Notes: generated by a model not told the origin, from the letters alone. 22,105 bases of DNA from a virus (IMGVR_UViG_3300032898_000017:1-22105); one strand, 5' to 3'; counted from the stretch's first letter, positions 327-20,952 are shown. Numbers and translations are program-made.

Positions 327-777
327 AGACTCAACCTTCAACGCCGAACAGTTCGTCGGCATTGCGACGGACCAGGCCGGCGAGACCAAATTCTACCCCG
401 TCCCCGTCGGGGAGTACCTCGCCCAAATCGACAAGGTCGAAGCCCGCGGCGGCATCGACAAGAACGGTAACCCCTGGCGCGCCCTCGACATTTCGTGGGC
501 CATCCTCGACGACGGCGTGAAGGCCGAATTGCAAATGGAGAAGCCCACTGCCCGCCAGAACATCTTCGTCAACGTCACGCCGCAAGGCGGCCTCGATTGG
601 GGTCGGAACAAGAACATCGCCCTGGGCCGCCTCCGCGAAGCCGTCGGCCAGAACCGGCCCGGCCGGGCATGGTCTCCCACTCACCTCATGGGGCAGATGG
701 CCAAGGTCAACGTGATCCACGTGCCGGATCAAAATGGCGATCCCCGGGCGGAGGTCAACAAGGTCGCCTCAGCCTAA
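319..777 (+). CDS. DUF669-like phage protein, candidate single-stranded DNA-binding protein
   Basis: The product has 152 residues. An AAAAGGA Shine-Dalgarno at 304-310 sits 8 bases before ATG 319. The protein resembles phage DUF669-type proteins by eye: a 'PVPVGEYLAQIDKVEARGG' strand-turn near residues 27-46, a central segment 'PWRALDISWAILDDG' (about 52-66) typical of a beta-barrel core, then a region of about 85-120 listing Asn, Arg and Gly, and a final strand 'MAKVNVIHVPDQNGD'. DUF669 proteins often sit in phage recombination/replication clusters and are thought to bind single-stranded DNA. Its place immediately before a methyltransferase and DNA polymerase fits that role. The family assignment is from pattern recognition only; the binding function is inference. 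Confidence 0.6.
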   Translation: MAEDSTFNAEQFVGIATDQAGETKFYPVPVGEYLAQIDKVEARGGIDKNGNPWRALDISWAILDDGVKAELQMEKPTARQNIFVNVTPQGGLDWGRNKNIALGRLREAVGQNRPGRAWSPTHLMGQMAKVNVIHVPDQNGDPRAEVNKVASA

Positions 778-795
778 CCCCCACCCCTTCAATCC

Positions 796-817
796 CCCGG
801 CGGCATTGTCCGCCGGG
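796..817 (+). promoter_or_regulatory. 8-bp perfect hairpin just upstream of the ParB-methyltransferase gene
   Basis: CCCGGCGG at 796-803 pairs perfectly with CCGCCGGG at 810-817 around a 6-base loop. It lies in the only sizeable gap of the left block (778-832), 15 bases before the ATG at 833 and just before an AGGGAAAG Shine-Dalgarno (821-828). There is no T-run after it, so it is not a classical intrinsic terminator. It could slow RNA decay, mark an RNA processing site or tune translation of the methyltransferase. Confidence 0.5.
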
Positions 818-832
818 TCGAGGGAAAGCCCC

Positions 833-2239
833 ATGCCAATCCGCCGTATTGACGAAGTGTTTGTGCCCGAAGGCCGGGTCCGCAAAATCATCGACCCGCA
901 AGGGCTCGAAGACCTTATCAAGTCCATCCAGGAGGTGGGGCTGCTGCACCCCCCCGTGGTGGAGGAAAATGGTGCGTTGCTTGCCGGAGAGCGGCGGTTC
1001 CGCGCCCTCCAGTGCATTGCCGAGCGCGGTCTGACCCACCACTGCAACAAAAAGTGGTTGGCCCCCGGCCTCATCATGACGACCGACATCCGGGACCTCA
1101 CCCCGATCCAAAGGCTCCAAGCCGAGATCGAGGAAAACACCATCCGGATCGACATTTCGTGGCAGGAGAAGTCGGAGGCCACCGCGGCGTTGCACGAGCT
1201 TCGGACGATGCAAAAGGCCGAATCGACCCTCCCAGGATTGCCGCCGGTGCCCCAAACCCACGAGCAAACCGCCGCTGAAATTCGGGGCAAGCCGGCGGAG
1301 GAGGTCACCCGGGCCGAAGTCCGGGACGTGAAGGCCGACCTCTACGTCCAGGCGTGGCTCGCGCACCACCCCGGCGACAAGAGCGTTGCCGATGCGAAGT
1401 CCCGGGCCGAAGCCCTCAAGATGATCGAACTCCACCTCGAGGACGAGCATCGTGCCGCCCTGGGCCGCCGGTTCGTCACCCAGCGCCCCGGCAAGGGCCA
1501 CATCATCCAGCGGGCCGACATGTGTCAGGTCCTCCCCGACACCCCCGACAACATTTACGACGTCATCTGCACGGACCCCCCGTGGGGCCGAGGCGCCGAC
1601 GATTGGACCAACGGGACGTCCCTCCGCCGCCACACCTATCAGGACGATTTTCACACCTTCGAGCGAATCCACCTGTGCCTCGCCACCCACGGCTTTCGCG
1701 TTTGCAAACCCAAAGCGCATCTGTATTTGTTCTGCGCCTTCCAAGCGTTTGACGAACTGAGCAAGATGTTCCGCGCCTCGGGCTGGGACGTGTGGCCCCG
1801 TCCCCTCATCTGGTTCCGTCCATCGGGTGGTATTGCCCCCCGGCCCGAGCATGGTCCCCGCAACACCTATGAGTGCATCCTGTTCGCGAACAAGGGAGAC
1901 AAGCGTGTCCTCACCCTCAAGTCCGATGTCCTCATTTACTCTAAACCTGCGGTGGACCTGCGAGCCGCCGGAAAGCCTGTCGGAGTCGTATATGACTTGC
2001 TTTCTCGAAGTGTATTGCCCGGTGACGAGGTGTTGGACCCGTGTTGCGGCAGTGGACCTATCCTGCCGGCCGCAAATGCGCTTAAGTGCCGCGCCACGTG
2101 TTACGACGTCGCGGACGACGCCATTGGCCTCGCCTCCGGCCGGATCGACGAGACCTACGCTCACACTGAAGCCACGGTCTCGTTCCCAACGACCCGGGAA
2201 CGGGCCGGGATGAAGGTGGCAAAGGTGGCGGAGGGTTGA
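833..2239 (+). CDS. ParB-like domain fused to a DNA methyltransferase
   Basis: The start is ATG 833 (468 aa) because AGGGAAAG at 821-828 is a good Shine-Dalgarno; the frame is open further upstream but runs into the previous gene. Residues 1-110 look like a ParB/Srx N-terminal domain, with 'LIKSIQEVGLLHPPVV' and the GERR box at 52-55. A charged helical linker follows. The methyltransferase part carries the catalytic DPPW box at 248-251 and the S-adenosylmethionine site 'LDPCCGSG' at 401-408. The catalytic box before the SAM site is the permuted beta-class order. DPPW favours N6-adenine methylation, though N4-cytosine is not excluded. Phage enzymes of this kind often protect phage DNA from host restriction. 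No restriction nuclease is next to it. It sits 3 bases before the polymerase gene, so the two are probably co-expressed. Confidence 0.85.
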   Translation: MPIRRIDEVFVPEGRVRKIIDPQGLEDLIKSIQEVGLLHPPVVEENGALLAGERRFRALQCIAERGLTHHCNKKWLAPGLIMTTDIRDLTPIQRLQAEIEENTIRIDISWQEKSEATAALHELRTMQKAESTLPGLPPVPQTHEQTAAEIRGKPAEEVTRAEVRDVKADLYVQAWLAHHPGDKSVADAKSRAEALKMIELHLEDEHRAALGRRFVTQRPGKGHIIQRADMCQVLPDTPDNIYDVICTDPPWGRGADDWTNGTSLRRHTYQDDFHTFERIHLCLATHGFRVCKPKAHLYLFCAFQAFDELSKMFRASGWDVWPRPLIWFRPSGGIAPRPEHGPRNTYECILFANKGDKRVLTLKSDVLIYSKPAVDLRAAGKPVGVVYDLLSRSVLPGDEVLDPCCGSGPILPAANALKCRATCYDVADDAIGLASGRIDETYAHTEATVSFPTTRERAGMKVAKVAEG

Positions 2240-2242
2240 ACA

Positions 2243-3967
2243 ATGCCCAATGACACCGTGGATACATTGCTCACTCTCCCGCCCTCCGCCTCCTTCCGCC
2301 CCATCGAGAGCGGGAGTCCATCGTCCCCCATCTGGATCATCGGCGAGGCGCCCGGCGGCGAGGAAATAGCACAACGCCGGCCCTTCGTCGGGGCCAGCGG
2401 CCAACTGCTCACCCAACTATTGCTCGAAACGGGCTTCGCCCGCCATCAATGCTTCATCACAAATGTCTGCCACGAACGCCCGCCCGAGCAGGTCAAGAAT
2501 GGAAAGGTCATCCGGGATGACATCAGTACCTTCTTCCTCACCAAAACCGAGGCCCGACGACGATTGGTATCGGAGGTATTGGGACGTTACCCCTTGCCTC
2601 CCGTGGTGTCCGGCCGTAATCACCTCATCAACCTCCTCGCTCTACATCGTCCCCAACTCATTCTCGCCTTCGGCAACACCGCCCTCTGGGCGCTCACCGG
2701 CCACACCGGCATCCTCAAGTGGCGAGGCTCCGTCCTCACCGCCACCGAAACCCCCCAGCCATTCACCAAGCTGATCCCCACCGCCCACCCGGCGGCCGTT
2801 CTCCGCGAGTACCCCCTCCGCAACATTGTGTTGCAAGACCTCCGCCGGGCCAAGCGCGAGAGCGCCTTCCCCGAGGTCCGCAAGCCGGCGTGGCAATTCA
2901 TCGTCCGCCCCACCGCTGACACCGCCATCGACTACCTCAACGGCCTATTCCGCAGGCTGACGTGGGGGCGCCAGACCTTTGCCTGCGACATCGAAACCCG
3001 CCGGGGCCAGATCGCCTGCGTCGGCATCGCCCAATCGGAAACCGAAGCGATTTGCATTCCCCTCATGTGTGTCGAGCGGTCGGAGGGCTACTTCTCTCCC
3101 GACGAAGAGCGATCCATCATCCTCCTCCTCCGCGCCGTCCTCTCTCACCCCAACGCCCGCATCGTGTTCCAAAATGGCGCCTACGACCTGCAATACTTTG
3201 CCAAGCAATACGGCTTCCTCCCCCGCATCCAGGACGACACGATGCTGATGCAGCATGTGTGCTTTCCCGGCCTGCGAAAGGGCCTCGACTTCCTCTCCAG
3301 CCTCTATTGCCGATACCACCGCTACTGGAAGGATGATGGGAAAACGTGGGACGACTCAATCAACGAGGAACAGCTTTGGACCTACAACTGCGAGGATTGC
3401 GTCCGCACATTTGAATGCTGGCAGGTGTTGACCGAGGTGGTGCGTGCCCGTGGCCTGACCGATCAATACCACTTCCAGATGCAGGAACTGTTCCCCATCG
3501 TCCTCCGAATGATGCTCCGCGGTATCGCCTTCGACAGCGACCGCCGGGCGTCCGTCCAACGTGACCTCGAAGCCTTCCGCCTCAATGCCCAGGACTGGCT
3601 CGATCGCGCCCTCGGCCACACGATCAACGTCGAGTCCTCGGCCCAAATGCAGCGCCTTTTCTACGAGGACCTGCGGGTGCCGACAATATTGCACCGCAAG
3701 ACCAAGCGCCCCACGTTGGACGACGAGGCCCTCGACCGGATTGCCCGCCAACAGCCCCTTTTGGCCCTCCTGATCCAGCACATCCGCGACATTCGCAGCG
3801 CCAACACCGCCCTCGAGAACGTGTTGACCGCCCGCGTATCGCCGGATGGTCGATCCCGCTCCACCATCAACATGGCCGGGGCGGAGACCTTCCGCTTTTC
3901 CTCCTCCGAGGATGCTTTCGGCTTCGGCTTCAACATGCAAAACATCACGAAGGGAGATGAAGCATGA
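2243..3967 (+). CDS. Uracil-DNA glycosylase / 3'-5' exonuclease / N-terminal half of family A DNA polymerase
   Basis: The 574-residue product has three parts. Residues 28-205 resemble a family 4-type uracil-DNA glycosylase: 'GEAPGGEE' at 34-41, 'PFVG' at 47-50 and 'PTAHPAAVLR' at 179-188. The N-terminal CxxC of iron-sulphur family 4 enzymes is absent. Residues 240-400 are a DnaQ/Pol I-type proofreading exonuclease with all catalytic residues: D249 and E251, N311 and D315, Y381 and D385. Residues 410-570 match the Pol I thumb and the start of the palm, ending with 'ETFRFSSS' (R551) and 'NMQNI' (564-568). The frame then stops, so palm motif A, the fingers and motif C are missing here. They are encoded by the separate gene at 4156. 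The two products together would make a full polymerase. The TGA forms an ATGA with the next micro-ORF. The glycosylase could remove or sense uracil ahead of synthesis; that role is inference. Confidence 0.88.
   Translation: MPNDTVDTLLTLPPSASFRPIESGSPSSPIWIIGEAPGGEEIAQRRPFVGASGQLLTQLLLETGFARHQCFITNVCHERPPEQVKNGKVIRDDISTFFLTKTEARRRLVSEVLGRYPLPPVVSGRNHLINLLALHRPQLILAFGNTALWALTGHTGILKWRGSVLTATETPQPFTKLIPTAHPAAVLREYPLRNIVLQDLRRAKRESAFPEVRKPAWQFIVRPTADTAIDYLNGLFRRLTWGRQTFACDIETRRGQIACVGIAQSETEAICIPLMCVERSEGYFSPDEERSIILLLRAVLSHPNARIVFQNGAYDLQYFAKQYGFLPRIQDDTMLMQHVCFPGLRKGLDFLSSLYCRYHRYWKDDGKTWDDSINEEQLWTYNCEDCVRTFECWQVLTEVVRARGLTDQYHFQMQELFPIVLRMMLRGIAFDSDRRASVQRDLEAFRLNAQDWLDRALGHTINVESSAQMQRLFYEDLRVPTILHRKTKRPTLDDEALDRIARQQPLLALLIQHIRDIRSANTALENVLTARVSPDGRSRSTINMAGAETFRFSSSEDAFGFGFNMQNITKGDEA
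3949..3957 (+). promoter_or_regulatory. Strong Shine-Dalgarno for the first micro-ORF
   Basis: GAAGGGAGA lies inside the last codons of the polymerase N-half and ends 6 bases before ATG 3964. It is one of the best ribosome binding sites in the window. It supports translation of the 31-codon micro-ORF that begins in the ATGA overlap. Confidence 0.65.
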
Positions 3968-4059
3968 CCCCCCAACAGTGCCTCGCTGCCCTCCTCTCCG
4001 TCATCCTCGCCCTCCTCGGCACCTACGTCCTCGTCGTCACCCTAACCTTCGGAGGCTAA
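3964..4059 (+). CDS. Micro-ORF 1: 31-aa single-pass membrane peptide
   Basis: ATG 3964 overlaps the TGA of the polymerase N-half (ATGA) and follows the strong Shine-Dalgarno at 3949-3957. The 31-residue product is polar for six residues, then almost wholly hydrophobic (Leu, Ala, Val, Ile) from about 7 to 28, ending in Gly-Gly. This is one predicted transmembrane helix. Codons are mostly C-ending, as in the surrounding phage genes. It lies in the 188-bp gap that separates the two halves of the DNA polymerase. I recognise no family. It could be a membrane tether for the replisome, a small inhibitor or a holin-like peptide; none of these is supported beyond its hydrophobicity. Confidence 0.55.
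   Translation: MTPQQCLAALLSVILALLGTYVLVVTLTFGG
4051..4055 (+). promoter_or_regulatory. Shine-Dalgarno GGAGG for the second micro-ORF
   Basis: GGAGG lies in the last codons of micro-ORF 1 and is separated from ATG 4061 by 5 bases. Its presence argues that the short reading frame downstream is translated and not a chance ORF. Confidence 0.6.
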
Positions 4060-4060
4060 T

Positions 4061-4150
4061 ATGCCCGCCACCTGGTTCACTTTCGGCTTCATCATGGGCG
4101 TCATCGCCACCACCACCGCCGCTGCCTGGTTCCTCTTGCTCCAAGGTTAA
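4061..4150 (+). CDS. Micro-ORF 2: 29-aa single-pass membrane peptide
   Basis: ATG 4061 lies one base after the TAA of micro-ORF 1 and 5 bases after GGAGG (4051-4055). The 29-residue product is hydrophobic from about residue 5 to 27, with several Phe, Trp, Ala and Thr residues, and reads as a single transmembrane helix. It has no charged residue at all. It is unlike micro-ORF 1 in sequence but alike in size and character, so the two may act as a pair. The stop at 4148-4150 is 5 bases before the ATG of the polymerase C-half, and AAGG at 4143-4146 inside this ORF can serve as the ribosome site for that gene. No family recognised. Confidence 0.5.
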   Translation: MPATWFTFGFIMGVIATTTAAAWFLLLQG

Positions 4151-4155
4151 CCCCC

Positions 4156-4911
4156 ATGCCCAAGTTGAAAATGCCCAACCTCCGCCGGATGTTCACCCCA
4201 GACCCCGATCACACGATCTTTGAGGTCGATCTCTCCGGCGCCGACGCCCGGGTTGTCGCGTGGGAAGCCAATGACGCCCCCCTCAAAGCCGCATTCCGCC
4301 AAAAGGTCGATATCCACGCCTTCAACGCCGAGGCAATTTGGCGGAAGGACGCTCCCCTTTCCCACTACAAGGATGATCGTTACCCCGAGCTTAAGAAGCT
4401 ACGGCAGCGCGCAAAAACGGCCATCCACGCCGTCGATTACGGCTGCAAAGAACGGACCCTCGCCGACCATATCCAGGTCTCCGTGACCGAAGCCGGCCGG
4501 TTCATCGACCGATGGTTCACCCTCCACCCCGGCATCCGCCAGTGGCAAAGCAACATCCAGCGCCAACTCTACGCCACATCCTCCGTCACCAATGTTTGGG
4601 GCTATTCCCGGCCCTATTTCGATCGGCCCAGCAGCCTCCTCCCCGACGCCCTCGCGTGGATCGGCCAATCCACCACTGCCATCGCGATCAACAAGCTCAT
4701 CGTCGCCCTCGACAAATCGGGTATCCCCCTCGACATTCTGCTGCAGACCCACGACAGCGTCACCTTCCAGGTATTCACCCCGTTGGTCCCGATCCATCTC
4801 CCGCGGCTGCGCGAACTGTGTCAGGTCACCGTCCCCTACGCCGACCCCCTCATCATGCCCTGCGACATCCAAACATCCGTCTCCTCGTGGGGCGAACTGG
4901 AGGCCGCCTAA
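4156..4911 (+). CDS. C-terminal (palm and fingers) half of family A DNA polymerase
   Basis: The 251-residue product supplies what the gene at 2243 lacks. Motif A is 'DLSGADAR' at 25-32 (catalytic D25; the Pol I Glu is Asp here). Motif B, the O-helix, has R83, K87, H91, Y95 and G96 in the spacing R-x3-K-x3-F-x3-YG of Pol I, with His at the Phe762/Tyr526 position. Motif C is 'QTHDSVTF' with H199 and D200. The protein begins with 'MPNLRRMFTPDP' (6-17), which in unsplit phage polymerases follows soon after the 'NLQNIP' box. The break therefore falls in a loop and loses almost nothing. With no exonuclease or thumb of its own, it must work with the upstream product. AAGG at 4143-4146 is a moderate ribosome site. 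Confidence 0.88.
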   Translation: MPKLKMPNLRRMFTPDPDHTIFEVDLSGADARVVAWEANDAPLKAAFRQKVDIHAFNAEAIWRKDAPLSHYKDDRYPELKKLRQRAKTAIHAVDYGCKERTLADHIQVSVTEAGRFIDRWFTLHPGIRQWQSNIQRQLYATSSVTNVWGYSRPYFDRPSSLLPDALAWIGQSTTAIAINKLIVALDKSGIPLDILLQTHDSVTFQVFTPLVPIHLPRLRELCQVTVPYADPLIMPCDIQTSVSSWGELEAA

Positions 4912-4929: not shown

Positions 4930-6150
4930 ATGGCCCGCCACTTTCCGAATTGGATCACCGCCTATGAGGAATACACGCAGCATTCCGAAGCCCCCCTCGC
5001 TTTCCACCGTTGGACTGCCATCGCCACCATTGCTGGCGCCCTCCGGCGTCGGGTTCGCCTCGAGATGGGCTATTTCCGCTGGTTTCCCAACTTCTTCCTC
5101 TGTTTCGTCGCCCCACCCGGCATCGTCAGCAAGTCCACCACGGCCGACATCGGGATGGCCCTCCTCCGCCGGGTCCCCGGCATCAAGTTCGGACCCGGCG
5201 CCATAACGTGGCAAGCCCTCATCACGAGCCTCGTCGAAAGCCGCGAGGACTTCGCCATGCCCGATGGCACCTTCATGCCGATGTGCGCCATCACGGTCGT
5301 CGCGAGTGAACTCGGCACCTTCATCCAGCCGGGCGACCAATCAATGCTGAATGCCCTAACCCACCTCTGGGACGGGCAGGACGACCCATTCCGCAAGAGG
5401 ACCAAACATGATGGCGAAGAGATCGTTGCAAATCCCTGGATCAACCTCGTCGGTTGCACCACCCCGGCGTGGATCGCGGAGAACTTCAACAACTACTTCA
5501 TCGGGGGAGGCTTCGCGAGTCGGACGTTGTTCATCTTCGCCGAGCACAAAAGGCAGCTGGTTGCCTACCCGGCCGCCAAGATTTCTTCAAAACAGGCGCA
5601 GCTTGGAGATCGCCTTGTTGCAGATCTTGAACAAATTGCTGGCCTCTGTGGAAACTACGTCCTCTCCCCTGACGCTATCCGGTGGGGGGAAGACTGGTAT
5701 GCACGTCACCATTCATCAGATAATCCCCTCCGACTTGATCCTCGGTCCGGAGGCTACTTTGCTCGAAAGCAAACCCACGTTCATAAAACCGCAATGGTTC
5801 TGGCTGCTTGCCAAGGCAACAGTCTCACTATCGAGCGACACCACCTCGAGCAAGCCGTCGAATGGGTGACGGAACTCGAACCCAACATGCTGGCCGTTTT
5901 CGGCGAAATGGGGAAGGAGAAAATCACCGATCAAATGGCCCAGATCCTCAAACACATCCGCGAGGTCGGCCGGGTCCGTCGTCCCGACCTTTACTCGAAG
6001 TTCATAACCCAAATGGGCTACCCAACCTTCAACGATTGCGTTACCGGCCTCCAACAGGCCGGGCTGATCGAATTGGTGCAGGATGCCCAGGGGTTTGTCG
6101 TCAAATACCTCGGCCAGCAAATCGAAATGAAGCTCGAGGCGAAGAAGTGA
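4930..6150 (+). CDS. DUF3987-like P-loop protein, likely replicative helicase
   Basis: The 406-residue product resembles phage DUF3987-type helicase/primase-associated ATPases. Signs are the N-terminal 'HRWTAIATIAGALRRRV' (26-42), a Walker A-like loop 'APPGIVSKST' (61-70) where Ser replaces the usual Gly before the Lys, a Walker B-like strand ending in 'ASEL' (125-128), and 'CTTPAWIAE' (176-184) followed by 'GGGFASR' (192-198), whose Arg may be an arginine finger. The last 80 residues look like a winged helix ('RPDLYSKF', 'GLQQAGLIEL'). It is the last gene of the left block, next to the polymerase, so helicase loading or unwinding is the likely job. A tract at about 5575-5850 uses many more A/T-ending codons than the rest of the gene. 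Its stop is one base from the stop of the convergent gene. Confidence 0.7.
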   Translation: MARHFPNWITAYEEYTQHSEAPLAFHRWTAIATIAGALRRRVRLEMGYFRWFPNFFLCFVAPPGIVSKSTTADIGMALLRRVPGIKFGPGAITWQALITSLVESREDFAMPDGTFMPMCAITVVASELGTFIQPGDQSMLNALTHLWDGQDDPFRKRTKHDGEEIVANPWINLVGCTTPAWIAENFNNYFIGGGFASRTLFIFAEHKRQLVAYPAAKISSKQAQLGDRLVADLEQIAGLCGNYVLSPDAIRWGEDWYARHHSSDNPLRLDPRSGGYFARKQTHVHKTAMVLAACQGNSLTIERHHLEQAVEWVTELEPNMLAVFGEMGKEKITDQMAQILKHIREVGRVRRPDLYSKFITQMGYPTFNDCVTGLQQAGLIELVQDAQGFVVKYLGQQIEMKLEAKK

Positions 6151-6151
6151 C

Positions 6152-8059
6152 CTACGGCGCGTTGGCACGGTCCGCCGCAGCCTGCCCCGCCGCCGGCCCA
6201 AACCGCCGAGTAGCCGCCTCCATCAATTGACTCATCCGTGCCGTTCCGGGTTTGGCCCGACTTGCCGCCATCAACAAGTCCTGACCAAAGTGGTCATTGA
6301 GCATCCGGTTGACGAAGTTGAACGTCGGCCGGACCGCCACCGCCGCCGTTCCCGCAACAGCAGCCCCCTTGACATCCCCATGAAGCAACCTCTCAATCCC
6401 CACCCAAAGCCCGAACTGGCCCGTCGGATGGCCCAGCGACGGGGCTTCGCTCCCGCCTCGCGCCAATTTATCCTCGTCGAGAAAGCCTCTCACACCCTTT
6501 ATCAACATCTGCTCGCGGGTGCTCATAAAGGGAGCCAGCCCGGCTTTATTGTCGAAGAACTTGACGAACTTCCCGGCGTCTACGACGCCTTTGCTGGTGG
6601 CGGAGTCGAGAGCCTTCTTTATTGCCCCCTGGAAGACGGCCTGTTGGCCCTTCTCCCCGACAAGGCCGGCGACGAGTTCCGCCTTATTGGGGTCATCGCC
6701 CAGCGCGATGCTGAGGGCGGTGTTCGCCCGCCTCAGTGGGTCAGGCTCTTCGAGCAACCCCTTGACGGCTGGGTCCTGGTAGGGAGCCACATTTTTCGCA
6801 TAAAAACGCGAGGCTTTTTTCTCCGCGGCTTTTGTTGTTGGGCTTGAAAACGAGTCCAACTTCTTTTGGAGCAGATCACGGGCCTCCCTCACCGCGGCCG
6901 TCGCCGGGTTCTTCGGATCACGGGCATTCTCAAGGTAGGTATTCATCTCCTCGACGCTCTGCTTCATCTGACTCCACCGGATGTCCGGCGCCGGAGCGAT
7001 GTTGCGGCCCTTCAACGCGGCAGCGGTGATGGCAGGCGGTAGGGTGTGCACCCCATCTTTCGTCACATATTGGCCAGTGGGGTCGAGGAAGAACGTCTGT
7101 TTGTTGATCGTCATGGACTTGGGCATCTTGCGATCCGGCGCGAGCACGTCCACGGCATTGTCGAGGATCGACACGGCCTTCTTGTCCGGCGCCAGCATTT
7201 TCCCCGTGCTATCAGCCATCGCTCGAAGTTTTGGTTCGACGTCCGCCATGTTAATCGGACCTTGAGCATCCCCCATCGCACTCGCCCGCTTGCTCAGTGT
7301 CACGAACCCCCCATGCAGCTTATCAACCATCTGGTTGAGGGTCCCCCGCTGCGCTGCTATCGCCGGGTCGAAGTCGGAGAACTCCCGCTGAATGGCGCCG
7401 ATGGCCCGCCGGGCTGCCTTCGTGTTGGCCATCTCGCCAATCAGGTTCCCGGCCTTGCTCAGCACCCCGCCGGTAACGGCACCGGCCGTTGCTCCCACCG
7501 CCTTCCCCGTCAGCCGATCCGACTGACTCGGATCAAATTGGGTGCCACCGGCCGCCCCACCCATGAGGGCCGCCCCCATCGCTGACTCTGGCGCGGCGAG
7601 CATGTAGGGTGCAGCCTGTCCCACGACGTCCCCCGCCTTCGTCATCATGCTGGGAGTCGGCAGAGCCTTGAGGGCTTCATTGGTAGCTTGGGTGAAGTCA
7701 TTGGCCCAGGCCTTCGCCCGGTCGCTGAACATCCCGGCGACATCGAGGCCGGTTTGCACGACGCCCGCCCCAGCCTGCAACAGGCCCCGTCCCACACCAT
7801 ACTTCGCCTGTTCGCCGATCGGCATGTTGTGCATGAGCCGCTGTGCCGTCGCCTTGTCCGTGTCAGCCGTCGGCATCTTGAGGCCAAAGTGCCCCCAGAT
7901 ATCGCTGTCACTATAGCCCTGTTGCTTCGCCGCGGCGAACTGGGGAGATTTTTCAAGATATTCCCCAATCTGTTGATCCGAGTAGCCGGCCTTCCGAGCC
8001 GCCGCTACCTTCGCCATCATATCATTGGGGTCGGGCACCACCACCTCCAAAGATCTCAT
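6152..8059 (-). CDS. Likely DNA ejection / internal virion protein (third of three)
   Basis: The longest form starts at ATG 8059 (635 aa); ATG 8020, just after the upstream stop, is a plausible alternative and removes 13 residues. The N-terminus carries two copies of a short motif: 'AGYSDQQIGEYL' (24-35) and 'QGYSDSDIWGHF' (47-58), of a type I associate with phage virion proteins. Residues 90-210 are rich in Gly and Ala with amphipathic or hydrophobic stretches, compatible with membrane insertion. The rest is charged and helical. I see no lysozyme or transglycosylase motif. Size and last place in the operon match P22 gp16 (609 aa), which enters the host during DNA delivery. The homology is not shown; the role is inferred from position and composition. 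Confidence 0.6.
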   Translation of the reverse strand: MRSLEVVVPDPNDMMAKVAAARKAGYSDQQIGEYLEKSPQFAAAKQQGYSDSDIWGHFGLKMPTADTDKATAQRLMHNMPIGEQAKYGVGRGLLQAGAGVVQTGLDVAGMFSDRAKAWANDFTQATNEALKALPTPSMMTKAGDVVGQAAPYMLAAPESAMGAALMGGAAGGTQFDPSQSDRLTGKAVGATAGAVTGGVLSKAGNLIGEMANTKAARRAIGAIQREFSDFDPAIAAQRGTLNQMVDKLHGGFVTLSKRASAMGDAQGPINMADVEPKLRAMADSTGKMLAPDKKAVSILDNAVDVLAPDRKMPKSMTINKQTFFLDPTGQYVTKDGVHTLPPAITAAALKGRNIAPAPDIRWSQMKQSVEEMNTYLENARDPKNPATAAVREARDLLQKKLDSFSSPTTKAAEKKASRFYAKNVAPYQDPAVKGLLEEPDPLRRANTALSIALGDDPNKAELVAGLVGEKGQQAVFQGAIKKALDSATSKGVVDAGKFVKFFDNKAGLAPFMSTREQMLIKGVRGFLDEDKLARGGSEAPSLGHPTGQFGLWVGIERLLHGDVKGAAVAGTAAVAVRPTFNFVNRMLNDHFGQDLLMAASRAKPGTARMSQLMEAATRRFGPAAGQAAADRANAP

Positions 8060-17896: not shown

Positions 17897-19699
17897 TCAC
17901 GCTGCTCGCGGCGGCCCTCCTACCTGCGACACCCGACCCGGCCCCCGGGCCGACGTCCCCGTCCCCTTCATCAGTTCCTTGTATTGCATCATCGTCAAAG
18001 CCGTTTTCATCTGCTCTTGCTGCTGCTGTTGCTGCTCCTGCGGATTGAGCATCATATCGTCGTACTCGGCCCCATGCAATTCCCGCAGCAGGTACTGGGT
18101 CAGCTTTTGCTTGTTAATGAGGGGATTCTGCGACAGCATCTGGTAGACCTGCACCGCCTTTGCCTCCCGCACCTGCTTCGTCTCGGGCAGCGTACTGTCG
18201 GGGTCAATGCTGACGTTATAGCCGCCCTTTTGCAGTTCCTGCGGCCGAAACTTCACCCACACCGGCACCCCACCCGGGCCGATCAGATCGACGACCTGCT
18301 CGTCCGACCCATCCCACCGGCTGAAGATCACGTCGTGCGTCTGCTTCATCACATCCACAATCAGATCAGCCACTGTATCTCGCCGCTCGTCCATCCGGAT
18401 CTGCGTCGCCTGATTAACGATGTTGGCCTCCGTCGCGCTCCGATCAGCAGACCCCGGCGCATACTCTCCGAATTGGTTCGCACCCAGCCCGAGGATCTCT
18501 TGCACATCCCTCTCGACCAGCGCATCCATCGTGATGAGGCCCTGGGGCAAATTCGCCGACTCCATTACTTTGACGTCGGCCACATTCCCTTCCTCCTCCA
18601 GCATGATGACCGGCCCGACCTCCTCGCCCGACAGCTTCTGCACCTCATCCGGCGACAGATGCTCGCGCTTCGCCAGGATCTTGATGAGGCTGATCCGCCG
18701 GTGCTTCATCATGACCGTGCGGATTTCGTTCAACTCGCGTTGCTGTGGCTCGAGGATCTGCGCATCCGGGATGCCCCAGAACCACAAATCGTCCTGGTTG
18801 AAGACCAGGGGAAAATAGGGAAAGTGACCGCGATCCATCATCTCATCGTGGCCCTGGTACAGAATTTTGCTGTGGTGATACGGCGCGATGATGAAGACAA
18901 TCCCGGTCTTTTTGTCCCGAATTTCCACCAGATCAACGAGCCCTTCCTCTCGCGGCCGTTCCGCCCGGATCATCTCGGACCCATACATCTTGCTCACGTT
19001 GATGTCCGACGTGTGCTCAAGCCGGGGATCATCCTTCACATCGTCGATATGGCGCCGGACCCAGTGTCCCACCCATCGGGCCGAGTGCAGGTCAGTTGTC
19101 CCCACGGGGACAATGAACTGACCCGGATGTACTGATAGGAACCACGGCATGTTCGGTAGTACCAGATCGTTGTATTCGACTCGGAAGTCGTGTTTCCCGC
19201 CGGACGTGGGGGCAGCTGCATCGAGGTAGTCCGGTGTTGGGGTGAACTCTGCTCCATATCCCAGTTTCCCTATTCCTGTGCCAAACATGAAGGCGTTTTG
19301 GGTCATCTGCTTGATGGCCTCTTTGACCTTCATCTGACGGATGAGCTTATTGTCGATCCTCTCGAGGATCTGCGCAAACACCGCGTTGTCGTCGCCCGGC
19401 TGTGAGGGCATCACGCTCACACTCGGATTGCGGAAATACACCCGGGGAACCAGCGTCCGCACCATCTTGAACATGATGTTGTAGGGGAGGGTGCCCGTCG
19501 GATACATGCCCCGGTAATACCGGCGAAAGAGGTCCCACTTGTCTTCGAAGGCTACCTTTTTCCGATACTCAACCCCCTTCCGGATTTGACTCATCCAGTA
19601 GGTGCCATCGGGCCGATCCCCTTTAACATACCCACTGTAGGTAATCTGGCCCGGCTTCGGGGGTGCCTCATCCGGCCGCATGAACTCACTATAACTCAC
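17897..19699 (-). CDS. Portal protein
   Basis: I chose GTG 19699 (600 aa) because it overlaps the upstream TGA as GTGA, as the ATP-grasp gene does with the terminase, and has GGGGATGG just upstream; ATG 19705 or 19711 would add 2 or 4 residues. The protein has the portal pattern: 'RRYYRGMYPTGTLPYNIMFKMV' near the start, a stem/wing mix with 'HPGQFIVPVG', 'FPYFPLVF', the clip/stem segment 'IPDAQILEPQQRELNEIR', 'SATEANIVNQATQIRMDERR' and a C-terminal Gln-rich tail with an uninterrupted run of six Gln (CTG/TTG repeats at 18013-18042). It forms the dodecameric ring for DNA entry and tail attachment. Length matches podovirus portals. Confidence 0.85.
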   Translation of the reverse strand: MSYSEFMRPDEAPPKPGQITYSGYVKGDRPDGTYWMSQIRKGVEYRKKVAFEDKWDLFRRYYRGMYPTGTLPYNIMFKMVRTLVPRVYFRNPSVSVMPSQPGDDNAVFAQILERIDNKLIRQMKVKEAIKQMTQNAFMFGTGIGKLGYGAEFTPTPDYLDAAAPTSGGKHDFRVEYNDLVLPNMPWFLSVHPGQFIVPVGTTDLHSARWVGHWVRRHIDDVKDDPRLEHTSDINVSKMYGSEMIRAERPREEGLVDLVEIRDKKTGIVFIIAPYHHSKILYQGHDEMMDRGHFPYFPLVFNQDDLWFWGIPDAQILEPQQRELNEIRTVMMKHRRISLIKILAKREHLSPDEVQKLSGEEVGPVIMLEEEGNVADVKVMESANLPQGLITMDALVERDVQEILGLGANQFGEYAPGSADRSATEANIVNQATQIRMDERRDTVADLIVDVMKQTHDVIFSRWDGSDEQVVDLIGPGGVPVWVKFRPQELQKGGYNVSIDPDSTLPETKQVREAKAVQVYQMLSQNPLINKQKLTQYLLRELHGAEYDDMMLNPQEQQQQQQEQMKTALTMMQYKELMKGTGTSARGPGRVSQVGGPPRAA

Positions 19700-19704
19700 A
19701 GCCA
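19695..19704 (-). repeat. Right-hand copy of a 10-bp direct repeat at the portal junction
   Basis: TGGCTGTGAG (minus strand) covers the last two sense codons and stop of the ATP-grasp gene and the start of the portal gene. The identical sequence occurs at 20948-20957 at the other end of the same gene, so the ATP-grasp gene is flanked by the copies. Confidence 0.6.
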
Positions 19705-20952
19705 TCCCCATTCTTCGAGTTGCTTGATGTCGGCCTCGGCCCTCAGCCCGATGTCCCGCCGATACATTTTGTCGGTCACCCGCAGGTTGTCAATCGTGCG
19801 ATACGCCCGCCGCCGCGCCACTCCCACATCCTCACCCCGCGCCGTCGCCTTCAGCGTCAACCCATCCCCGCCCGCCGTTTTGAACAGCATATCCTTAGGG
19901 TCCACGAAAACGTTGCAGAGCCACAGGTGGTTAATGTTGTTCTCGTTGATCCCGAGGATGGGTTCACCCCATTCCACCTTAATCCCCTCATCCTCCGACG
20001 GATACGGCGGCACTCCCATCCGCACCGCAATCGTCGGCCCCGGCCACATTTCGACGGCCGTCAGCCGCCCCTCCGCTACTTCCCGAAAAAACTCGCCAGC
20101 ACCCAGGCGCATGCCCTCAAGCAAAGCCTCGATCGCATCGTAACCGAAGCGAGCCGTGGCTTCCAGAGCAAAAGCCCCATCAGCATTGACAATGCAATTG
20201 ACATCAACAGGGCCGCGCCACCCCAAGCGCGTAAGGAGGGGCTTAAGCCGGCCGACAGTAGCATCGACAAGGCGGTTCGCAGGGCGAGTAATGACGATAT
20301 TACCCATGCACCCAGTATTGGGACCAAGGTTCCCCTCCATGAATTTCTTTTCCTCGAAAGTGTGGTTGAATGGTCTGATCCATTCTCGCCCATTGAACCA
20401 CCCCTCCGTGGATACCTCAATACCCTTCACCACCCGCTGCACGATGATGTGGCAGGAAGTGGGGTATTGGTTGAGCGCCCATTCGAGCTGCTCTGGTTCT
20501 TTTAGCACCCGGCTGCTGGCACACCCGATGTTACCGTCGGCCTTGATCGCGAAGCCATCGCCCCATTCTTCCCCAACGAAGAACTGGCGGACTTCATCCG
20601 GCGAGTTGAAAGACCAAGTCTCAGGGATCGTAATGCCGTATTTCTGAAACACCTCCATGCCATACGCCCGGTCGAGTTCAATCCGATCCATTTCCTTGGA
20701 TGCGCCGATCGCCGGCACACCCACCGCCTTGATCACAGGCTCCAATTGTTGCCCCATCCCCACCATATCCACGAGGATGAGGTCCGTATTCCGTAGGCCC
20801 TCGCGCCACGAGTCAATCCGTTGGACGATATTCTGCCCACTCCGCTTGTAGTGTGGCGACTTAATCCACATCCGGACGCTGTGGCCCTCCAGGCGCAGCC
20901 TACTAGCTACGCCGAGCGAATCCCCCGTTTGGCTAAGAACCGTGATCCTCAC
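19696..20952 (-). CDS. PurD-like ATP-grasp ligase (phosphoribosylamine-glycine ligase homologue)
   Basis: GTG 20952 overlaps the terminase stop (GTGA); the product has 418 residues, close to bacterial PurD. The order matches PurD: an N-terminal sub-domain to about 85, an A/B-type ATP-grasp core with 'GNIGCASSRVL' (140-150), 'FMEGNLGPNTGCMG' (204-217; PurD 'DGDEGPNTGGMG'), 'VDVNCIVNADGAFALEATARFG' at the metal site, and a C-terminal domain with 'TAGGDGLTLKATARGE', 'RRAYRTI' and 'YRRDIGLRA'. PurD joins glycine to phosphoribosylamine in purine synthesis. Two departures: the usual N-terminal GGREHA box is absent, and the Asn of 'EFNARFG' is Thr (T266). The substrate may thus differ. No other purine gene is near; the gene is locked into the virion operon. 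Confidence 0.78.
   Translation of the reverse strand: MRITVLSQTGDSLGVASRLRLEGHSVRMWIKSPHYKRSGQNIVQRIDSWREGLRNTDLILVDMVGMGQQLEPVIKAVGVPAIGASKEMDRIELDRAYGMEVFQKYGITIPETWSFNSPDEVRQFFVGEEWGDGFAIKADGNIGCASSRVLKEPEQLEWALNQYPTSCHIIVQRVVKGIEVSTEGWFNGREWIRPFNHTFEEKKFMEGNLGPNTGCMGNIVITRPANRLVDATVGRLKPLLTRLGWRGPVDVNCIVNADGAFALEATARFGYDAIEALLEGMRLGAGEFFREVAEGRLTAVEMWPGPTIAVRMGVPPYPSEDEGIKVEWGEPILGINENNINHLWLCNVFVDPKDMLFKTAGGDGLTLKATARGEDVGVARRRAYRTIDNLRVTDKMYRRDIGLRAEADIKQLEEWGWL

Follow-up and report, generated by a model that had tools for sequence, protein, structure and literature searches.

The family A DNA polymerase of this virus is encoded by two genes, and we put at roughly 90% the probability that their products are two subunits of one replicative enzyme, translationally coupled and cut within a surface loop. 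The window, meaning the entire stretch of DNA that was analyzed (22.1 kb), is a virus record from IMG/VR. Its polymerase combines a uracil-DNA glycosylase (UDG), a 3′–5′ exonuclease and a family A polymerase, and consists of gene A (polA-N, 2243–3967) and gene B (polA-C, 4156–4911). Because the same cut is present in dozens of related viruses, the arrangement appears to be a functional enzyme in two parts that arose on repeated occasions, and not a broken gene. The break is conserved and recurrent, the catalytic residues on both sides of it are intact, both halves are under selection, the small ORFs that separate them are gene-like, and no sign of an intron was seen. Polymerase activity would be expected of the two products together.

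Gene A (plus strand, frame 2) specifies 574 amino acids comprising the UDG, the 3′–5′ exonuclease, the thumb and the first part of the palm, with Pfam matches to PF03167 (residues 23–193), PF01612 (245–400) and PF00476 (450–569, equivalent to profile positions 19–132). It ends with NMQNITKGDEA and a stop codon, a few residues past the “NMQNI” box. Gene B (plus strand, frame 1) specifies 251 amino acids, opens with MPKLKMPNLRRMF followed by motif A, and continues through the fingers, motif B and motif C (PF00476 positions 140–342). From the stop of gene A to the ATG of gene B there are 188 nt (3968–4155). Since the Pfam match in gene A ends at position 132 of the 381-position PF00476 profile and that in gene B starts at position 140, the two genes jointly span one polymerase domain; their DNA_pol_A scores (38.1 and 80.9 bits, respectively) are both above the cut-off of 34.3. 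The usual single continuous polymerase polypeptide is not found in the window, where two ORFs lie in different frames 188 nt apart. The initial annotation had described a polymerase split just before motif A with 188 bp between the parts, the first ending right after the “NMQNI” box and the second resuming with motif A; the gene coordinates, the two PF00476 halves and the translations all agree with that description.

Motif A (4228–4245, plus strand) holds the catalytic aspartate, D25 of gene B, together with D30, and is kept in every split row of the alignment that has letters there. Motif B (4414–4440, plus strand) provides K87, H91 and Y95 of gene B, and motif C (4750–4758, plus strand) provides H199-D200-S201, such that the PolA motif residues D25, K87, Y95 and H199-D200 are all present in gene B. 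Residues D249, E251, D315, Y381 and D385 of the gene A exonuclease are invariant, and the polymerase residues R551 and Q566 of gene A are conserved, as are D25, K87, H199 and D200 of gene B. Every catalytic position checked is kept in both the split and the unsplit rows, which bears out the claim that both parts retain their catalytic residues. Continuous genes in relatives combined with damaged residues here had been named as an observation that would speak against a two-subunit enzyme; such genes do exist, but no residues are damaged here. Note that H91 (4426–4428) stands where E. coli Pol I has Phe762, a residue that controls nucleotide discrimination in Pol I, and that almost all members of the family, whether split or not, have histidine there. 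Note also that in this phage family a UDG domain (2309–2821 in the window) is fused N-terminally to a replicative polymerase; the dUTPase and ThyX genes carried between the halves of some split loci would fit a link between this fusion and uracil avoidance.

The genes are flanked upstream by a ParB-N plus DNA methyltransferase gene (734–2239, plus strand) and downstream by a gene for a DUF3987 / phrog_14296 DNA primase-type protein (4930–6150, plus strand), neighbors that are common to the loci L002, L003, L130 and L078. Elsewhere in the window, a PurD-like ATP-grasp protein (GARS_A, GARS_C; 19696–20952, minus strand) is encoded beside the portal gene amid structural genes.

Two small ORFs fill the interval between the halves. 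ORF1 (3964–4059, plus strand; 31 amino acids, MTPQQCLAALLSVILALLGTYVLVVTLTFGG) starts with an ATG that overlaps the gene A stop as ATGA, and ORF2 (4061–4150, plus strand; 29 amino acids, MPATWFTFGFIMGVIATTTAAAWFLLLQG) starts one base past the ORF1 stop and is preceded by a Shine-Dalgarno (SD) sequence, GGAGG, at 4051–4055. Gene B starts five bases past the ORF2 stop. The in-frame stop at 4057 reported in the initial annotation is real, but it belongs to ORF1, which had not been listed. Given the first ATG, this tiling was reproduced by 6.9% of shuffled sequences and is thus weak coding evidence; codon and SD evidence was therefore used instead. Codon scores per codon were 0.26 for ORF1 and 0.36 for ORF2, compared to 0.22 for gene A and 0.26 for gene B, and other readings of the gap were negative. 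The sequence AAGGGAGATGAAGC (3950–3963, plus strand), which constitutes the KGDEA codons of gene A, is at the same time an SD for the ATG at 3964, with a duplex energy of −10.5 kcal/mol. That of ORF2 is −9.5 kcal/mol, and both are strong given that the 5% tail of random 20-mers lies at −8.5 kcal/mol, while the SD of gene B itself is weak in the window (−3.8 kcal/mol). Searches of Pfam and PHROG gave no family match for either ORF, and no convincing relatives of them were present among the fetched loci. Both products are hydrophobic, and judging from its sequence each would suffice for one membrane span.

To estimate how widespread the break is, approximately 200 loci were retrieved with profiles of genes A and B and then classified; only the best 80 matches per scan were taken, and the census is consequently biased toward best matches. 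The search for the same break in related genomes, which the initial annotation had proposed, yielded at least 49 distinct sequences (window included, duplicates removed) in which A and B are separate ORFs split at the identical alignment column, a recurrence far beyond chance, although the B frame of L109 lacks a normal start codon and only part of gene A is matched by L113, L156, L196 and L198. Typically, A ends with NLQN[IL]xKGDE or similar (e.g., NLQNIPKGDE followed by a stop) and B opens a few codons ahead of LPNIRKMFxPDPG and motif A. The nearest relatives among the matches listed, L002 (61% identity in A and 58% in B) and L003 (56% and 49%), have A and B joined by a 4-nt ATGA overlap with no insert. 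With starts assigned mechanically, 20 of the 49 splits show a 4-nt overlap between the A stop and the first start that follows, and eight show a 1-nt overlap. One of the 49 is an isolate, Vibrio phage VS-ABTNL-3, and an exact-pattern scan revealed further contigs, beyond the classified set, in which the A-end motif is followed by a stop. Prokaryote genomes contained only three relatives, none of which is split. Unsplit relatives carry a linker of 1 to 52 residues at the break position that is variable and often acidic. A hint of further half-length polymerases comes from phrog_12241 and phrog_2573, profiles with an end and a start at the break; their members may include intron-split genes.

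Two other departures from a continuous gene were observed among the fetched loci. L004, L006, L046 (Caulobacter phage Kuura), L083, L185, L187 and L192 are split at a second recurrent position, which separates the exonuclease domain from the polymerase domain; some of them have small ORFs between the parts. The unsplit polymerases of L012 (about 6884–7797) and L023 (about 6953–7800) contain an in-frame insertion of ∼300 amino acids within motif B, an intein-like position, for which no Pfam intein match was obtained.

Both parts of the split enzyme are constrained. Values of dN/dS in close split pairs were mostly 0.05 to 0.16 for both halves, although close pairs were few and several dS values were saturated; the exceptions were half B of L056/L060 (0.64, from a short fragment of 65 codons) and half A of L180/L201 (0.23). 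Evolutionary distances in A and B were correlated in splits (r = 0.55), as they were in unsplit genes (0.62), compared to a permutation maximum of 0.22. Twelve split records were searched for an alternative replicase. All contain both PolA parts, save L147, in which only the B part was found by Pfam, and none has another family A, B or C polymerase; because the records may be incomplete, a missing second polymerase is no proof. With the break conserved in relatives, purifying selection on both halves and a cultured phage that shares the break, these observations favor the prediction of the initial annotation that the locus encodes a two-subunit enzyme and not a dead gene.

In the AlphaFold model of the unsplit polymerase L052 (802 amino acids, pLDDT 93.7), which matches the Klenow and Pol theta folds, the break falls within a coil of ∼30 residues (531–561) that connects a strand of the palm to that of motif A; this coil contains the blocks of lowest internal confidence (76–78, versus a mean of 93.7). 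Half B of the window modeled alone has a predicted pLDDT of 94.8, and its best Foldseek matches are Bst and Klenow (TM-score ∼0.8 over the query), where it superposes on the corresponding part of the polymerase. A cut in this loop would probably leave the fold undisturbed. From Pol I structures, what a polymerase needs is divided between the products: A has the thumb and primer-template residues, and B has both catalytic aspartates. Neither half is expected to be a polymerase alone, because B is without a thumb and A without the catalytic aspartates.

In the mechanism that we propose, A and B would be translated from a single operon mRNA. The A stop overlaps the next start, the final codons of A would serve as the SD for reinitiation, and in the window phage translation would traverse ORF1 and ORF2 before reaching B. 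The A product would contribute the UDG, the proofreading exonuclease, the thumb and the first palm strands, and the B product the remaining palm with both catalytic aspartates, plus the fingers. The two chains would then assemble non-covalently, as expected since unsplit relatives have a long, variable surface loop at the site of the cut.

Four other readings were weighed against this one. The initial annotation had offered as an alternative one polymerase gene with a small self-splicing intron of ∼185 nt, the removal of which restores the frame and, as then worded, the “family-typical joining” of the parts. An intron has been suggested by the authors who described the split polymerase of phage MEP401 (PMC10580990), and four of the genes found between halves encode HNH endonucleases, which are often intron-borne. 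However, relatives with the 4-nt ATGA overlap leave nothing to splice, the A stop lies at a near-constant distance past the NLQN box, almost every split has a separate start for B, and the frame relation of A to B is mixed (19/16/14). There is also no fixed joining to restore, given the variable linker of unsplit genes. Inserted genes are mostly ordinary ones, and in the window the gap holds two gene-like ORFs. A covariance search of the window and of 22 split loci with cargo gave no match to Rfam intron models, no catalytic group I core was found, and folding of the gap RNA was no better than that of shuffled sequences (z = +0.64). We consider splicing exceedingly improbable. Scarcely any weight, too, can be given to a decaying gene in which a nonsense or frameshift mutation left a dead 3′ part. 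A stop and a change of frame do disrupt a domain that many relatives have in one piece, but decay is countered by the retained catalytic residues, by purifying selection on both halves, by a break common to a well-supported clade of 16 split rows and by the absence of a replacement polymerase from the 12 split records. An assembly error at 3960–4160, which had been named as something that would refute the two-gene reading, was discarded because the break recurs in contigs of independent origin as well as in an isolate.

Another reading is that programmed ribosomal frameshifting or readthrough of the stop fuses the two proteins in a fraction of the products. A slip near the stop would join the frames of L002 and other relatives with the ATGA overlap, and slippery-looking sequences are present (AAAGGGG in L002 and AAAGGGA in L028). 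Neither mechanism could bridge the ORF-filled gap of the window or cargo of 0.2 to 2.8 kb, and inspection by eye revealed no slippery heptamer at the window or L003 junctions. The mixed frames and the mixed A stop codons (TGA in 31 splits, TAA in 12 and TAG in six) indicate that there is no common recoding signal. This reading is very unlikely, and the earlier judgment that a simple frameshift does not fit holds. Similarly small is the chance that the halves are no longer one enzyme, with A acting alone as a UDG-exonuclease and B in another role. A does have two complete enzymatic domains and B is predicted to fold alone, but the polymerase residues R551 and Q566 of A and D25, K87, H199 and D200 of B stay conserved, the genes remain close together with correlated distances, and each half is missing what the other supplies. 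A split intein was looked for at the break and none was seen; there is no room for intein halves because the A end and the B start lie within a few residues of each other in the family alignment.

On a tree of 85 polymerases the window falls within the clade of 16 split rows (SH-aLRT 99), and the split/unsplit label requires 10 changes, at least seven of them forced by strong branches. A single clade of all splits was rejected (AU p = 0.0005, from a short tree search and a two-tree test), and therefore splitting or rejoining happened repeatedly. One unsplit gene (L202, 4243–6717) is nested among the split L146, L147, L153, L163 and L181 and is a candidate for a rejoining of halves. The SD energy of the A tail has a median of −8.5 kcal/mol in splits, and in 36 of 48 cases it ranks within the top 10% for in-frame 24-mers from the same gene. 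The same codons in unsplit genes have a median of −6.6 kcal/mol (P = 0.006, a value that ignores kinship), which is still a stronger SD than such genes usually contain (mean percentile 0.28). SD-like codons at the A tail may plausibly be a reason for the repeated splitting.

What lies between A and B varies from nothing, through a short ORF, to as much as ∼2.8 kb. Pfam and PHROG matches identified HNH endonucleases (L061, L101, L113, L155), dUTPases (L147, L181), ThyX (L087), a ribonucleotide reductase (L205), DnaQ-like exonucleases (L051, L056, L180), methyltransferases (L068, L171) and pyrophosphatases (L078, L097, L149). An odd cargo for a phage operon is the 499-amino acid di-haem oxidoreductase-like protein (Pfam DHOR) of L191 (4492–5991), where the close relative L067 has only ∼300 nt. 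L151 (ATGA overlap) and L155 (HNH insert) are 94% identical in A and 97% in B, and L175 versus L194 and L179 versus L068 are further close pairs with and without cargo; such pairs demonstrate cargo turnover on top of a pre-existing split. Fission is probably older than the insert of the window, since the nearest relatives overlap A and B directly and inserted genes vary by lineage. Insertion after fission is the simplest reading, with cargo loss possible in single cases. More tentatively, and with less than even confidence, we suggest that the family has a built-in fission point: acidic codons in the variable surface loop (e.g., AAG GGA GAT GAR) would already be SD-like, a stop and a nearby ATG would repeatedly give two coupled subunits, and the junction would then become an expression slot that captures nucleotide-metabolism or small membrane-protein genes, their dose tied to that of the replicative polymerase.

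In textbooks, a family A replicative polymerase is a single-chain enzyme, and the palm is its catalytic core. A natural, conserved and repeated cut in the palm would show that this core can assemble from two chains in the cell, and would supply ready-made split polymerases for reconstitution assays. Half-genes of this kind are easily misreported as introns, frameshifts or pseudogenes, and a set of split and unsplit genes this closely related allows direct tests of how gene fission evolves.

The closest known systems are the unsplit UDG-exo-PolA proteins of uncultured phages (e.g., L052, L007 and L042), phage MW202489 and Microcystis phage Mel-JY34, which share domain order and catalytic residues with the window at ∼33% to 46% identity but are single genes in which the 1- to 52-residue linker takes the place of the stop, the two ORFs and the second start present in the window. 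In Vibrio phage vB_VspS_VS-ABTNL-3 (MF497422; PVS_29, PVS_28 and PVS_27) the break column is the same, A ends with NLQNLPKGDG and a stop, and an ORF lies between the halves with overlaps; its cargo differs, being one 184-amino acid phrog_8380 protein of unknown function, and identity to the window is only ∼30%. In the Methylophilales (marine OM43) phages MEP401 and MEP402 a family A polymerase is likewise divided over two ORFs that flank a small one, an arrangement for which the authors suggested an intron (PMC10580990), but no UDG domain was found and the break lies ∼15 residues downstream, beside motif A, after NLQNFDGEIKTLFLSRYGE. In the literature covered, of which subscription journals form little part, these were the only split family A polymerases found, and neither this recurrent break nor its cargo was reported. 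Against that literature, what is new is the cargo slot and a break that is both conserved and recurrent, a split PolA itself having been reported once, for MEP401. Caulobacter phage Kuura (OQ067476) has a related polymerase as two genes with two small ORFs between; there, and in the six other loci listed above with the second split position, the break is between the exonuclease and polymerase domains and not in the palm. A T4-like family B replicative polymerase comes in two pieces, gp43A and gp43B. Phage MIJ3 has a split family B polymerase with a split intein (PMC6892783). Both systems differ from the window in polymerase family, and no intein is seen at the window break, but they resemble it in having a replicative phage polymerase made in two pieces.
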